A stretch of 36,961 nt of DNA from a virus: the IMG/VR virus record IMGVR_UViG_3300030104_005413, positions 1 through 36,961 of that record, one strand, 5' to 3'. The notes below the pieces were generated by a model, which had not been told where the DNA came from, made no database searches, and saw only the letters and a list, made by a program, of their open reading frames with translations. The number at the start of each line of letters is the position of its first letter. The first letter of the stretch is position 1. Shown piece after piece: positions 24,314 through 31,175 of the stretch. Made by a program: the position numbers and the translations under genes.

Positions 24314-24703
24314 TTAAAAAGGTAAATCGTCTTTAGATTCTACCTCCGCTTGTTCCGCTTTTGCTTGATCAACTCTTTCGAACATTTTATTGTCTCTAGC
24401 TTGTTGCGAATCTAATTCACTTGTAATTGCTATTTTCCAAGCATCTAGAGTATTAAAATAAATTGTTTCTCCTTTCGGGCTAACCCATGATCTGCCTCTT
24501 AAATTATAACTTACAACTACAAAGTCTCCCTCTGATCTATTGTCAAGTTGATGAAAATACTTTTCAATAACTTCAAATTTTATTTCTTGGGGATAATCTT
24601 CGTCGTCTGTTTTTATTGCAAATTCTCTTTTTATAAAACCATTTTTGTTTATAATATCAGATATATATATTAATTGGCCTCTTAATGTTTTTTCTTCTTT
24701 CAT
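24314..24703 (-). CDS. DUF3127 single-strand DNA-binding-like protein
   Basis: 129 residues. REFAIKTDDEDYPQEIKFEV (26-45), GDFVVVSYNLRGRSWV (59-74) and LDAWKI (87-92) match the Bacteroidota DUF3127 OB-fold family. The acidic tail ends SKDDLPF, the SSB-type tip that recruits partner proteins. It should coat single-stranded DNA at the phage fork. It is the last gene of the leftward replication operon, just before the terminator. Confidence 0.8.
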   Translation of the reverse strand: MKEEKTLRGQLIYISDIINKNGFIKREFAIKTDDEDYPQEIKFEVIEKYFHQLDNRSEGDFVVVSYNLRGRSWVSPKGETIYFNTLDAWKIAITSELDSQQARDNKMFERVDQAKAEQAEVESKDDLPF

Positions 24704-25175: not shown

Positions 25176-25721
25176 TTAATATTTATTTTTTGACGACCTA
25201 GGCGCGTCTGGCTGATTAGCTTTAAACTCCTCATGCCTCCTTTTATTTATATCATAAGCTATTTCCATTCTAGCCTCTGAATACATTCTTATTATTTTTA
25301 ACAATCTATCTAAAGTCAATCCATCATATAAATCATAATAGCCGTGTAGAATTCTTTTAAAAATTATTGTCAGATCTGAAATCTTATTATAACCATAGGA
25401 TTGAAGAATTTCATGGGCCGCGATTCTGATTTGATCTTCAGACATTGAAGTTTTACGATCTAAAGTTTTATTTAAAAAGACGATCCAGCCCATTATTAAA
25501 CCTTTAGCCCACCCATAACCAAAACCTCCATTTTCTTCAGTTCTGGCTAATTTATTTAATGTATCCGTTTCACTGTTTATTGATTCCTCAACGGTCATAA
25601 ATGCCGTATTGGTAATATTTTCATAAGGATCATATTTCCTTAAATACTTGTTCGTTTGCACCTCTTTGGATTTCTTCGAGGAACTCATTTGAGTATTTTG
25701 TTCTTTTTTTATTATTTTCAT
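25176..25721 (-). CDS. Replication-associated protein (DUF6633-like, possible helicase loader)
   Basis: 181 residues. The N-terminal 30 residues are polar. Residues about 90-165 hold DLTIIFKRILHGYYDLYDGL and LLKIIRMYSEARMEIAYDINKR, which resemble DUF6633-type proteins beside initiator genes in Bacteroidota phages. A helicase-loader role is a guess from its place directly after the initiator. It overlaps that gene by 92 bp if ATG 25721 is used; ATG 25688 is the alternative. The 25721 start lies inside a variant ACGCTAAATGAAAA of the recurring element. Confidence 0.55.
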   Translation of the reverse strand: MKIIKKEQNTQMSSSKKSKEVQTNKYLRKYDPYENITNTAFMTVEESINSETDTLNKLARTEENGGFGYGWAKGLIMGWIVFLNKTLDRKTSMSEDQIRIAAHEILQSYGYNKISDLTIIFKRILHGYYDLYDGLTLDRLLKIIRMYSEARMEIAYDINKRRHEEFKANQPDAPRSSKNKY

Positions 25722-26349
25722 TTAGCGTATTATTATATATTATTTCATCTAACCAAGCTTTTTGATTTAAAAAAACTTCGGGGTTTTTCCTGTATTTTTT
25801 TTCAGGTTGAGCCAATTTATATTTTGGTATGTATTCAATTATTTCCACTTTAGTTTTATAAGGAAGTTTATTCCACTTTTTTTCGCATCGATCTTTACTT
25901 ACTTTTTTGTCGTATAAATCCCAAAATTCAGTAAAATCCGGGCGAATGTATTGTTTAGTTTCATCTTCATTTTTATTTACATCTTCATTTGCATTTGCAT
26001 TTACCATATGATTAACATATGTTTTTGATATGTTTAACATATGATCTTTTGTTTTACCTAATCTGTTGTTTCTTCTAGATTCAGAATAGTTTTTCCTTTT
26101 TTCTGATTCTTTAATCATTCTATTGTTAAAGTATTTGTTATCCTGGGTTTTTTTAAAAAAATTTTCGATCAGATATTCCGAAGGATCATGATTCCTTAAA
26201 ACTCTTTTAATAGTTTCTAAAGATAAAGGCCCCTCAATATGTTGCTCATTCATTAAGAGAATTAACATTCCTATTTCTTCAAGATTTAATTTTTGCGTTC
26301 CAGCATTAAAATCTTTAGCATACATTAAATAGGCGGGGTCTTTGCTCAT
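25630..26349 (-). CDS. DUF1376-type replication initiator
   Basis: 239 residues. Residues 1-60 (DPAYLMYAKDFNAGTQKLNL) match DUF1376/YdaU-like proteins of phage replication modules. Residues about 75-130 are a charged linker with Asn repeats, and residues about 135-210 (FTEFWDLYDKKVSKDRCEKK) match the DnaD/DnaT-like initiator C-terminus seen in similar phages. It likely binds the origin and recruits host DnaB or a loader. Four 11-bp repeats lie inside the linker-coding part (26005-26048), as lambda's origin lies in O. It overlaps the DnaA-like gene by 4 bp. Confidence 0.7.
   Translation of the reverse strand: MSKDPAYLMYAKDFNAGTQKLNLEEIGMLILLMNEQHIEGPLSLETIKRVLRNHDPSEYLIENFFKKTQDNKYFNNRMIKESEKRKNYSESRRNNRLGKTKDHMLNISKTYVNHMVNANANEDVNKNEDETKQYIRPDFTEFWDLYDKKVSKDRCEKKWNKLPYKTKVEIIEYIPKYKLAQPEKKYRKNPEVFLNQKAWLDEIIYNNTLNENNKKRTKYSNEFLEEIQRGANEQVFKEI
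26005..26048. repeat. Four 11-bp iterons, candidate replication origin
   Basis: CATATG begins at 26005, 26016 and 26038 and GATATG at 26027, all exactly 11 bp apart, with similar flanks (ATTAA, TTTTT, TTTAA, ATCTT). Eleven is not a multiple of three, so coding constraint does not explain it. Direct repeats TCTTCATTT and GCATTT adjoin at 25964-26002. Helically phased sites inside an initiator gene are typical of a lambda-like origin. Confidence 0.65.
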
Positions 26350-26837
26350 AATATTTCAGCATTTACGTTAATTTGATTTAAATATTTAGATTGAATAAAA
26401 GAAATTACTTCAAGCCGTTGTTCTTCGGTTAATTTTTTTATTTCTTTTTTTAAGGTATCTAGATGTTTGTCTTCATTATCAAGGCCGTCATAACCTTTAA
26501 ACTTCATTCTCCAGAGTTTAGCTAAATTTCGAAACTCTTCATCAAAATTATATAAATTGTCATAGGTTCTGCAATGATATAAAACCGTAGCGTGATCTCG
26601 ATTTAAATATCTACCTATACCTGAAAGGGATAGTTTTAAATCAAACCTCGCATATTTGCAAAAGATTTTTAATAAATTAATTTTTGCTCTAAACCTACCT
26701 TCTTGTTCTTTTAAATCCCAAGAGGTTTCTTCAAAAATAGGTTTATAATATTGATCTAATATTCTTGATGTTACTTGTGTGATTGAATCGGCTTGTTTTT
26801 GTCGAATCGATTCTTTTGAATTATTATTTGTTTCCAC
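26346..26837 (-). CDS. DnaA domain IV-like replication protein
   Basis: 163 residues with a GTG start at 26837. Residues about 58-92 (KYARFDLKLSLSGIGRYLNR, DHATVLYHCR) match the DnaA signature helix-turn-helix that reads DnaA boxes. No ATPase domain is present. The C-terminal 60 residues are charged helices. Probably a phage origin-binding factor that works with the initiator encoded next to it, or an element that uses host DnaA sites. It follows a TCGCTAAATAAAAAATAAA leader. Confidence 0.8.
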   Translation of the reverse strand: METNNNSKESIRQKQADSITQVTSRILDQYYKPIFEETSWDLKEQEGRFRAKINLLKIFCKYARFDLKLSLSGIGRYLNRDHATVLYHCRTYDNLYNFDEEFRNLAKLWRMKFKGYDGLDNEDKHLDTLKKEIKKLTEEQRLEVISFIQSKYLNQINVNAEIL

Positions 26838-28703: not shown

Positions 28704-28800
28704 ATTTAGTTAATTCTAATTTGACTAAATTTTAACATATTTTGTATATATTTTAATTAAATTTTAACTAAATATAAACTAAATTTTTAAAAACAACAAA
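28704..28800 (-). promoter_or_regulatory. Leftward early promoter with ACTAAAT operators
   Basis: The leftward strand has TTTG (28800-28797), a 20-base spacer, and TATATTTA (28776-28769). ACTAAAT occurs at 28724, 28767 and 28778 and its complement ATTTAGT at 28704. Two copies, 11 bp apart, cover the -7 box and spacer, so repressor bound there would block the promoter. The rightward repressor promoter in this gap is not clear. Confidence 0.65.
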
Positions 28801-28831: not shown

Positions 28832-29710
28832 ATGGCATATAATACATTGACACTTAGTGATAAACGTAAAGATCAAAATTCAGAAAGGATGCTTAAAATA
28901 ATAGAGTGGAGTGGTCTCCCTGTATATGCATTCGCTAAAACTTGTAAAATTTCATCAGCCTCCTCAATAAATAACGTAATTAAAAAAGGAGTAACCCCAA
29001 GTGAGGCAGTTATAAGTAAAATTGTGAATAGATTCCCGCAATTATCTTACGATTGGATACTTACCGGATCGGGCACAATGTTAACAATTTCAAGTGATGA
29101 AAATTCTTCGGAATATTCTCAAAAAACATCTAGAGACGCAACATTCAACCAAATATTAAAAAAACTAGAGTCTCATGAAATGGCTCTAGAAGGGGTTTTT
29201 AAAAAATCTGATTCATTAATTGAAAAAATGAATTCAATCATGTTATTGATTAGTGAAAACCAAGCGATGACAACTTTGAAATTTGATAAATTAATTAATT
29301 ATTTTACGGAATATGTTACCAAACAAAGAGAGCAAAACTCACAGGCAATAGAAGATTTTACAAAAATGATAAACACTATAGTTAAATCTCAAAATGCAGC
29401 AGATGATAGGTCAGATGAAAGCCTAAAAGCTGGTATGGCTTTAGTTAAATCAATAGAACAAACTAAAATAGAAGGTGTAGCAATGATAAAAGCTGTACAT
29501 GAGCAATCTAACAGAGCTTTAGAACTTGGCGAAAGGGCTTTAGATGAAAACACAAAAGCCTTACAGAGTTTCGAAAAAGGTTTAGAAGGTTATGCTACAG
29601 AGAGAGACAAAAAAGCAGAAGAGATTACTCTTGTTAATGTAGAAAAATTATTTAGAGAATTAATAGAACAAAAAGGGCTAGGCACTTATACTAAATATAA
29701 AAAGATTTAA
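28832..29710 (+). CDS. Phage repressor-like protein with coiled-coil C-terminus
   Basis: 292 residues. Residues about 18-78 (RMLKIIEWSGLPVYAFAKTC, then FPQLSYDWILTGSGTML) match the N-terminal helix-turn-helix of Bacteroidota phage repressors. The usual C-terminal S24/LexA protease is missing. Instead residues about 100-290 are a long charged helix with heptads. It is divergent from the early operon across operator repeats, and convergent with integrase (4-bp overlap). Likely maintains lysogeny, but without self-cleavage; induction would need another signal. An anti-repressor is the alternative. Confidence 0.7.
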   Translation: MAYNTLTLSDKRKDQNSERMLKIIEWSGLPVYAFAKTCKISSASSINNVIKKGVTPSEAVISKIVNRFPQLSYDWILTGSGTMLTISSDENSSEYSQKTSRDATFNQILKKLESHEMALEGVFKKSDSLIEKMNSIMLLISENQAMTTLKFDKLINYFTEYVTKQREQNSQAIEDFTKMINTIVKSQNAADDRSDESLKAGMALVKSIEQTKIEGVAMIKAVHEQSNRALELGERALDENTKALQSFEKGLEGYATERDKKAEEITLVNVEKLFRELIEQKGLGTYTKYKKI

Positions 29711-30903: not shown

Positions 30904-30924
30904 TTTTTATTTAGCTTTTTTTAT

Positions 30925-31164
30925 TTTGTGGATAGTTTTGTGGATAGAAAAATATAAATTAAATCAATAAAAAACAATTAAAAAAAACAAAAGAAATAAA
31001 AAAAGGTTAAAGAAGCCTTGAAAATACTCATGTTTTTTTAATGGGGTTTAATTTTTTTTTATTTCCTTAATATAAGGGTTCGATTCCCGTCCAGACCGCA
31101 ACCATAACTCTAAACCCCTGTCAATGCTAGGGGTTTATTTTTTTGTGGATAGATTTGTGGATAG
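30925..31164. other. attP: attP region: paired arm sites around a tRNA 3'-end core
   Basis: TTTGTGGATAG occurs at 30925-30935, 30937-30947, 31142-31152 and 31154-31164, two direct pairs each with a 12-bp step, probably arm-type integrase sites. Between them, 31076-31099 reads as a tRNA T-arm and acceptor end (GGGTTCGATTCCCG, then CCAGACCGC). That end fits a Bacteroidota tRNA-Asp as I remember it. This gap otherwise holds only AT-rich sequence and a terminator. Confidence 0.78.
31112..31143 (+). terminator. Terminator following the attP tRNA fragment
   Basis: AAACCCCT (31112-31119) and AGGGGTTT (31129-31136) pair over a 9-base loop and are followed by ATTTTTTTG. The orientation matches the tRNA end, so on integration the phage would supply both the tRNA 3' end and its terminator. 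Confidence 0.75.
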
Positions 31165-31175
31165 AACTCGAATTT

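Follow-up and report, generated by a model that had tools for sequence, protein, structure and literature searches.

What could evenly spaced palindromic hexamers be doing inside the reading frame of a putative replication initiator? In a virus record of 36,961 bases, all of which was analyzed and is called the window here, four copies of CATATG or a close variant start exactly 11 bp apart in such a gene. An earlier note on this DNA had described these four hexamers and suggested that they resemble a lambda-like origin and may be a new iteron type. Their positions proved exact to the base (Table 1), and the array is the only one of its kind in the window. Written in the sense of the gene, it is CATATG TTAAA CATATC AAAAA CATATG TTAAT CATATG, the second copy being CATATC in the nearest relatives as well. 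The array encodes H-M-L-N-I-S-K-T-Y-V-N-H-M, and the hexamer is therefore read in all three frames. When up to one mismatch is allowed, CATATGN5CATATG has three matches in the window, all within the array, against an expectation of 0.09, and none of 100 shuffles of the window reached three. Lone CATATG is not clearly enriched (13 occurrences versus 7.7 expected, with 4/100 shuffles having as many), and thus it is the phasing that makes the array unusual.

In gene sense, the array is immediately followed by a feature that the earlier note did not mention: a tail of seven 6-bp units (on the minus strand, GTAAAT GCAAAT GCAAAT GAAGAT GTAAAT AAAAAT GAAGAT), which is a candidate unwinding element. 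Of 47 genes scored for both, 44 have their tail on the downstream side of the iterons, and in 44/47 scored genes it is less stable than its own gene. In the window, the duplex stability of the tail is at the median of its AT-rich gene, and it is not unusually unstable.

Table 1. Positions in the window of the initiator gene, its neighbors, the iterons and the hexamer tail.
Feature	Position	Strand	Details
DUF1376-like replication initiator gene	25630..26349	-	239 aa
DnaA-domain-IV-like gene	26346..26837	-	directly upstream, 4-bp overlap; PF08299 24.6 bits, cut-off 31.5
Single-strand-binding-protein-like gene	24314..24703	-	downstream, same operon; phrog_4932, E = 6e-26
Iteron 1 (gene sense)	26038..26043		CATATG; His-Met codons 103-104; basis: sequence
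Iteron 2 (gene sense)	26027..26032		GATATG on + / CATATC on -; across codons AAC ATA TCA
Iteron 3 (gene sense)	26016..26021		CATATG; across codons ACA TAT GTT
Iteron 4 (gene sense)	26005..26010		CATATG; His-Met codons 114-115; adjoins tail
Hexamer tail	25963..26004	-	seven GNAAAT-like 6-bp units; candidate unwinding element

The gene that houses the array encodes a protein with an N-terminal domain (residues ~10-97), a linker (~100-138) and a C-terminal module (~139-205), and the array corresponds to residues 103-115, in the opening part of the linker, predicted to be flexible, that joins the two predicted domains. In the AlphaFold model, the N-terminal domain is confident and the C-terminal module is helical, with the linker predicted to be disordered (pLDDT <50 at 110-113 and 116-134). 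DUF1376 is still labelled a domain of unknown function. The Pfam DUF1376 family (PF07120) matches the window protein with 23.6 bits (E = 7e-5), which is under the curated cut-off of 30.1, and we therefore refer to it as DUF1376-like rather than as a filed Pfam member. Its PHROGs matches include a primosomal protein (E = 2.8e-9) and a replication initiation protein (5.5e-9), with phrog_270 'replication initiation protein' among them. With this qualification, the assignment of the gene to a DUF1376-type initiator holds, as does that of its DnaA-domain-IV-like neighbor, for which the PF08299 match is also below the cut-off. Fold searches with the whole model and with the N-terminal domain alone returned nothing at E <= 0.001 among solved structures, with only a weak resemblance to MarR/MotA winged helices, and a sequence search of solved structures yielded nothing useful. 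The gene that follows the initiator (25176-25721) has no informative Pfam or PHROGs match, and no helicase or loader gene was recognized beside the initiator gene in the window. Among deposited phages, there is no DNA match to the replication region of the window and no match to the DnaA-domain-IV-like protein.

A search for the four-copy phased pattern returned 46 viral-contig stretches, most of which lie inside DUF1376-like genes. A sample of clade A1 was picked by alignment of the N-terminus only, so that selection was not on the array; it consists of the best 80 of at least 592 relatives and includes 78 complete genes. In 76/78 of these complete genes, which represent the best N-terminal matches rather than all relatives, we find at least three 11-bp-phased copies of CATATG (<=1 mismatch), located in the linker, in N-terminal-domain codons or in both. 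Across 57 distinct genes, neighboring exact copies of CATATG are separated by 11 bp 74 times, by 12 bp 12 times, by 22 bp seven times and by 33 bp twice; all other distances are at least 78 bp, and control palindromes of similar composition produce no pairs below 40 bp. Arrays are present in 29/31 related contigs (26-58 kb), in almost every case confined to the DUF1376 gene, and a reversed-pattern control gives 0 in all 31. In an alignment of 25 proteins, four of the eight invariant columns fall in the linker motif, and the C-terminal modules that come after it fall into several types that look unrelated. Among the relatives, the phased hexamers persist despite changes in the spacer bases, in the flanking residues and in the entire C-terminal domain; the earlier note had proposed to check whether the 11-bp spacing outlives protein changes, and it does. 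The case named as refuting this, a relative that encodes this linker with no repeats in it, did not turn up: where the array is lacking, the linker is of another kind, for example Pro/Lys-rich. The proposal of a new iteron type needs to be restated, because the motif is not peculiar to the window phage and is one of several in a widespread family.

A search with the whole window protein retrieved only C-terminal relatives with other N-termini and, in genome contigs, no relative. A search of genome contigs with the CATATG pattern found mostly unrelated chromosomal repeats, notably in Rhodobacterales, and only four loci with a DUF1376-like gene. Many 11-bp CATATG arrays, several per genome, occur in Rhodovulum, Phycocomes and other Rhodobacterales chromosomes in a TTCATATGNRA-like context with no DUF1376 gene nearby (L075, L081, L082, L088, L089, L091, L092, L094, L101, L113, L115, L116 and L118).

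Several variations within the relatives deserve mention. Linkers of the HMSQHMSTHMSIHM type (L145, L148, L181, L183 and L185) have a CATATG step of 12 bp, a codon multiple, although in L185 this applies to only one of the two steps; such in-frame spacing means that strict helical phasing is broken in some relatives. Many genes in the range L028-L196 have a second 11-bp-phased array of CATATG/GATATG at codons ~42-58, in the N-terminal domain and without a tail. This second array is found in clades A1 and A4 and is unexplained by the origin model proposed below. The L197 gene, which has no CATATG arrays, contains TTAGGTT at nt 139 and 150 (11 bp apart) and once in the linker; this is perhaps another iteron word. 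Differences in reading frame between relatives (L027/L039/L071 and L050/L062) were considered as fully independent proof and dropped, because an 11-bp unit, when repeated, inevitably passes through each of the three frames; these differences show only a different phase of entry.

Is it the DNA or the protein that is being kept? For the window gene alone, shuffling synonymous codons with the protein fixed gives p = 0.023 for the phasing, which taken alone is suggestive. Across the family the signal for phasing at the DNA level is very strong: the same shuffles, run within each of 55 genes, yield p < 0.05 in 64% of them. In 31/31 aligned linkers, Ile is ATA (26% elsewhere in the genes), Tyr is TAT (background 0.56), His is CAT (background 0.60) and Ser/Thr is NCA, and the codon preceding the last linker His ends in A whatever the residue. 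These genes are related and the codon counts are not independent, a weakness from which the non-coding arrays described next are free. The earlier inference that an 11-bp period, not being a codon multiple, implies conservation of the DNA itself is borne out by the fixed synonymous sites and by arrays found in non-coding DNA. As far as comparison of sequences can establish it, there is selection on the array at the DNA level.

Array and tail demonstrably change place as one element, which can lie outside the gene. The linkers of L103 and L109 lack the array, and array and tail are found 153 and 119 bp upstream, respectively, in non-coding DNA. In G001, G002 and G012, the last of which was retrieved by protein alone, the linker again lacks the array, and array and tail are intergenic, kilobases away elsewhere in the contig. 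The main non-coding arrays, phage and chromosomal, have a 6-bp periodic tail on exactly one side in 9/9 measured cases, with a lag-6 identity of 0.64-0.92 versus a background of 0.28. One contig (L222 5230, G003) has both an array in the linker and, ~18.7 kb away among structural genes, a second non-coding array with a tail.

Arrays with hexamer tails also appear in intergenic chromosomal DNA, in the Clostridia MAG G005 (L214 3609, L215 5853 and L216 6159) and in MAG G004 (L218 6258). No DUF1376 gene is nearby at any of these sites, and the neighbors, judged by eye, are genes such as argG and hrcA. At three intergenic sites of one Clostridia MAG, the copies are 83-85% identical to the putative origin region of its prophage; the intergenic MAG copies are absent from the 58 other family genomes sampled with a related pattern. 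It is possible that the chromosomal copies are decoys, satellites or remnants, and a binning error is not excluded. Because ectopic lambda origins block lambda replication (PMC4488673), decoy activity is conceivable for them, with no activity data available, and it is speculation that copies in host chromosomes act, to the harm or benefit of the phage, as decoy origins or satellite handles.

Two further clades of DUF1376 genes, A3 and A4, were likewise sampled by the N-terminus only. In a motif-free test of periodicity, the linker DNA of each of the three clades has peaks at 11, 22 and 33 bp, and also at multiples of 6 bp (A1 and A4) or 7 bp (A3); the same test on C-terminal codons gives no peaks in the three clades. 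Tested against shuffled codons, lag 11 is significant in 71% of the distinct linkers of A1 and in 75% and 92% of those of the other two clades. The control lags 9 and 13 reach significance in 0-8% of distinct linkers and lag 10 in 3-25%, with lag 12 raised only in the clades that have a 6-bp tail. Direct repeats in phase with the helix are thus present with an 11-bp period in three clades, but the iteron word differs by clade (CATATG; GTTCAAC / AACGACCGTT; others) while the period stays constant. DUF1376 genes from Pseudomonas, Moraxella, Bordetella and an environmental phage have AACGACCGTTC-like linker repeats at 11- or 22-bp spacing. Most simply, and by inference, the 11-bp step would be a property of the nucleoprotein complex that DUF1376 forms, and the word would be set by the recognition surface of each clade. 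A putative origin architecture common to the DUF1376 clades is well supported by the alignments. The wider generalization, that DUF1376 initiators across phages of several bacterial phyla share palindromic sites at an 11-bp step with a 6/7-bp tail as a mobile element, copies of which serve as decoys or satellites in hosts, is rather unlikely to hold in full.

Since many relatives retain the spacing with a different word, protein or position, the stretch is most likely the start site of genome copying. Array and tail very probably form a lambda-like intragenic replication origin. We read the element this way from its lambda-like anatomy, the gene order in relatives, the C-terminus of YdaU, and the position and stability of the tail. 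The anatomy, the single place per genome in most phages, the clade-wide architecture and the synteny with replication genes in relatives are observed; protein binding, melting and origin firing at the array are inferred. The lambda-like origin put forward in the earlier note is therefore the best-supported reading of the anatomy, but no origin has been mapped, and GC skew, one of the checks that the note had proposed, follows gene strand along the window and locates no origin. Mechanistically, the DUF1376-like N-terminal domain would bind one palindromic hexamer in each helical turn, with the sites on a single face of the DNA. The resulting complex would strain the adjacent 6-bp-periodic tail until it opens, and the C-terminal module may then recruit either the helicase or a helicase loader. 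The element would double as code for the flexible linker, which would tolerate the residues dictated by the iterons (HMLNISKTYVNHM).

The element can be compared with several known systems. The lambda origin lies inside O, where iterons bound by O sit beside an AT-rich tract that is opened on O binding (PMC7466680, PMC5043065). As in lambda, the repeated sites here are inside the initiator gene between the N- and C-terminal domains, and relatives have the initiator-loader order: the gene after the DUF1376 gene encodes DnaC, a helicase loader or replication protein P, or else a Toprim-DnaB helicase, in which case YqaJ, RecT and SSB precede the DUF1376 gene. In lambda, O dimers bind iterons that are inverted repeats of 19 bp (PMC5043065), whereas we observe 6-bp palindromes every 11 bp, a DUF1376-like rather than an O-type N-terminal domain, a tail built of 6- or 7-bp tandem repeats, and an element that can leave the gene. 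Helix-phased direct repeats are shared with iteron plasmid origins of the P1, RK2 and R6K type, in which they sit by an AT-rich region (PMC5043065); unlike these, the unit is a palindromic hexamer with an 11-bp step, no DnaA boxes are nearby, and the array is inside a phage initiator gene. The E. coli Rac prophage provides a further comparison: its DUF1376 gene, ydaU, has four 14-nt repeats in the linker at spacings of 33, 33 and 12, then a 6-bp repeat. The order of linker repeats and 6-bp repeat is as in the window gene, although the motif is another and the spacing mostly 33 bp. For the C-terminus of YdaU, the match is 'replication initiation O-like' (E = 2.5e-24). An active origin, oriJ, is present in Rac (PMC3945230), but we found no source that maps it to ydaU. 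Finally, in gene 4 of the Bartonella run-off replication region, palindromes in an O-like gene were read as a lambda-like origin (PMC3610622). The resemblance to the window consists of palindromic repeats in an O-like gene upstream of a helicase, but neither 11-bp iterons nor DUF1376 is reported there (PMC3610622).

An origin is not the only way to account for the array. The window is AT-rich and contains other short tandem repeats, among which the array could in principle have arisen by chance; this can practically be set aside, being refuted by the shuffles of the window, none of which equals the array, and by the 46 matching viral stretches, most of them in DUF1376-like genes. That a conserved linker (HMxxI[CS]x[ST]YxxHMENENEN) and low-complexity coding sequence gave rise to the repeats as a by-product is very improbable. 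The linker residues are nearly invariant, as such a by-product would have it, and the synonymous test on the window gene alone is merely suggestive, but the synonymous positions fixed in every one of the 31 linkers speak for the DNA, neither 11 bp nor the 7 bp of clade A3 is a codon multiple, and the linker holds its invariant columns despite being predicted to be disordered. The occurrence of array and tail as non-coding DNA contradicts the by-product reading outright.

Explanations that grant the array a function are harder to dismiss. It could be an operator that autoregulates the replication operon, for which the arrays upstream of the gene in L103 and L109 are plausibly positioned and with which the second array early in the gene in many relatives would agree. 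We nevertheless consider this improbable: most phages have the array in mid-gene, or kilobases off as in G001, G002 and G012, the periodic tail adjoins it even where non-coding, and its position matches that of a lambda-type origin. Unlikely as well, if by a slightly smaller measure, is that the origin is bound by some other protein, such as the DnaA-domain-IV-like neighbor, with the DUF1376 gene only housing the array. This neighbor is directly upstream in the window and in several relatives, yet PF08299 matches occur in only 18/31 related contigs (13 over the cut-off) versus arrays in 29/31, and it is thus probably not the main iteron binder. Furthermore, CATATG is unlike a DnaA box, and there is no convincing box near the array, the nearest TTATCCACA-like site being 1.4 kb off and the frequency of such sites at chance, whereas the iteron motif shifts with the DUF1376 clade and keeps its 11-bp period. 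We infer, without binding data, that the DUF1376 protein is the better candidate for the binder; the DnaA-domain-IV-like protein may assist in some phages.

Among the open papers searched, we found none that pairs DUF1376 with iterons and none on comparable phage iterons with CATATG or an 11-bp step; a partial anticipation, for instance in the 2006 review 'Bacteriophage replication modules', is possible. If the intragenic origin proposed here is real, a very common phage gene family would consist of origin-binding initiators, and origins could be read from sequence by the 11-bp phase and tail in the linker. It would also account for a disordered linker being among the most conserved parts of the protein. 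Protein clades and iteron words would then form testable recognition pairs, relatives would offer natural experiments on helical phasing (11 versus 12 bp) and on an origin leaving its gene, and copies of the origin carried by host chromosomes may disturb the replication of phages.

The window has two other sets of repeats. At 28720-28787, between the leftward early operon and a rightward gene at 28832 that is repressor-like by eye, there are 6.3 tandem copies of an AT-rich 11-bp unit (TTTAACTAAAT); these are possibly phased operators or bent promoter DNA. Beside the integrase gene, paired TTTTGTGGATAG repeats at 30924-30947 and 31142-31165 flank an apparent tRNA 3' end (~31077-31100), and this region is probably attP with integrase arm sites. 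The TTTTGTGGATAG repeats resemble DnaA boxes with one mismatch.
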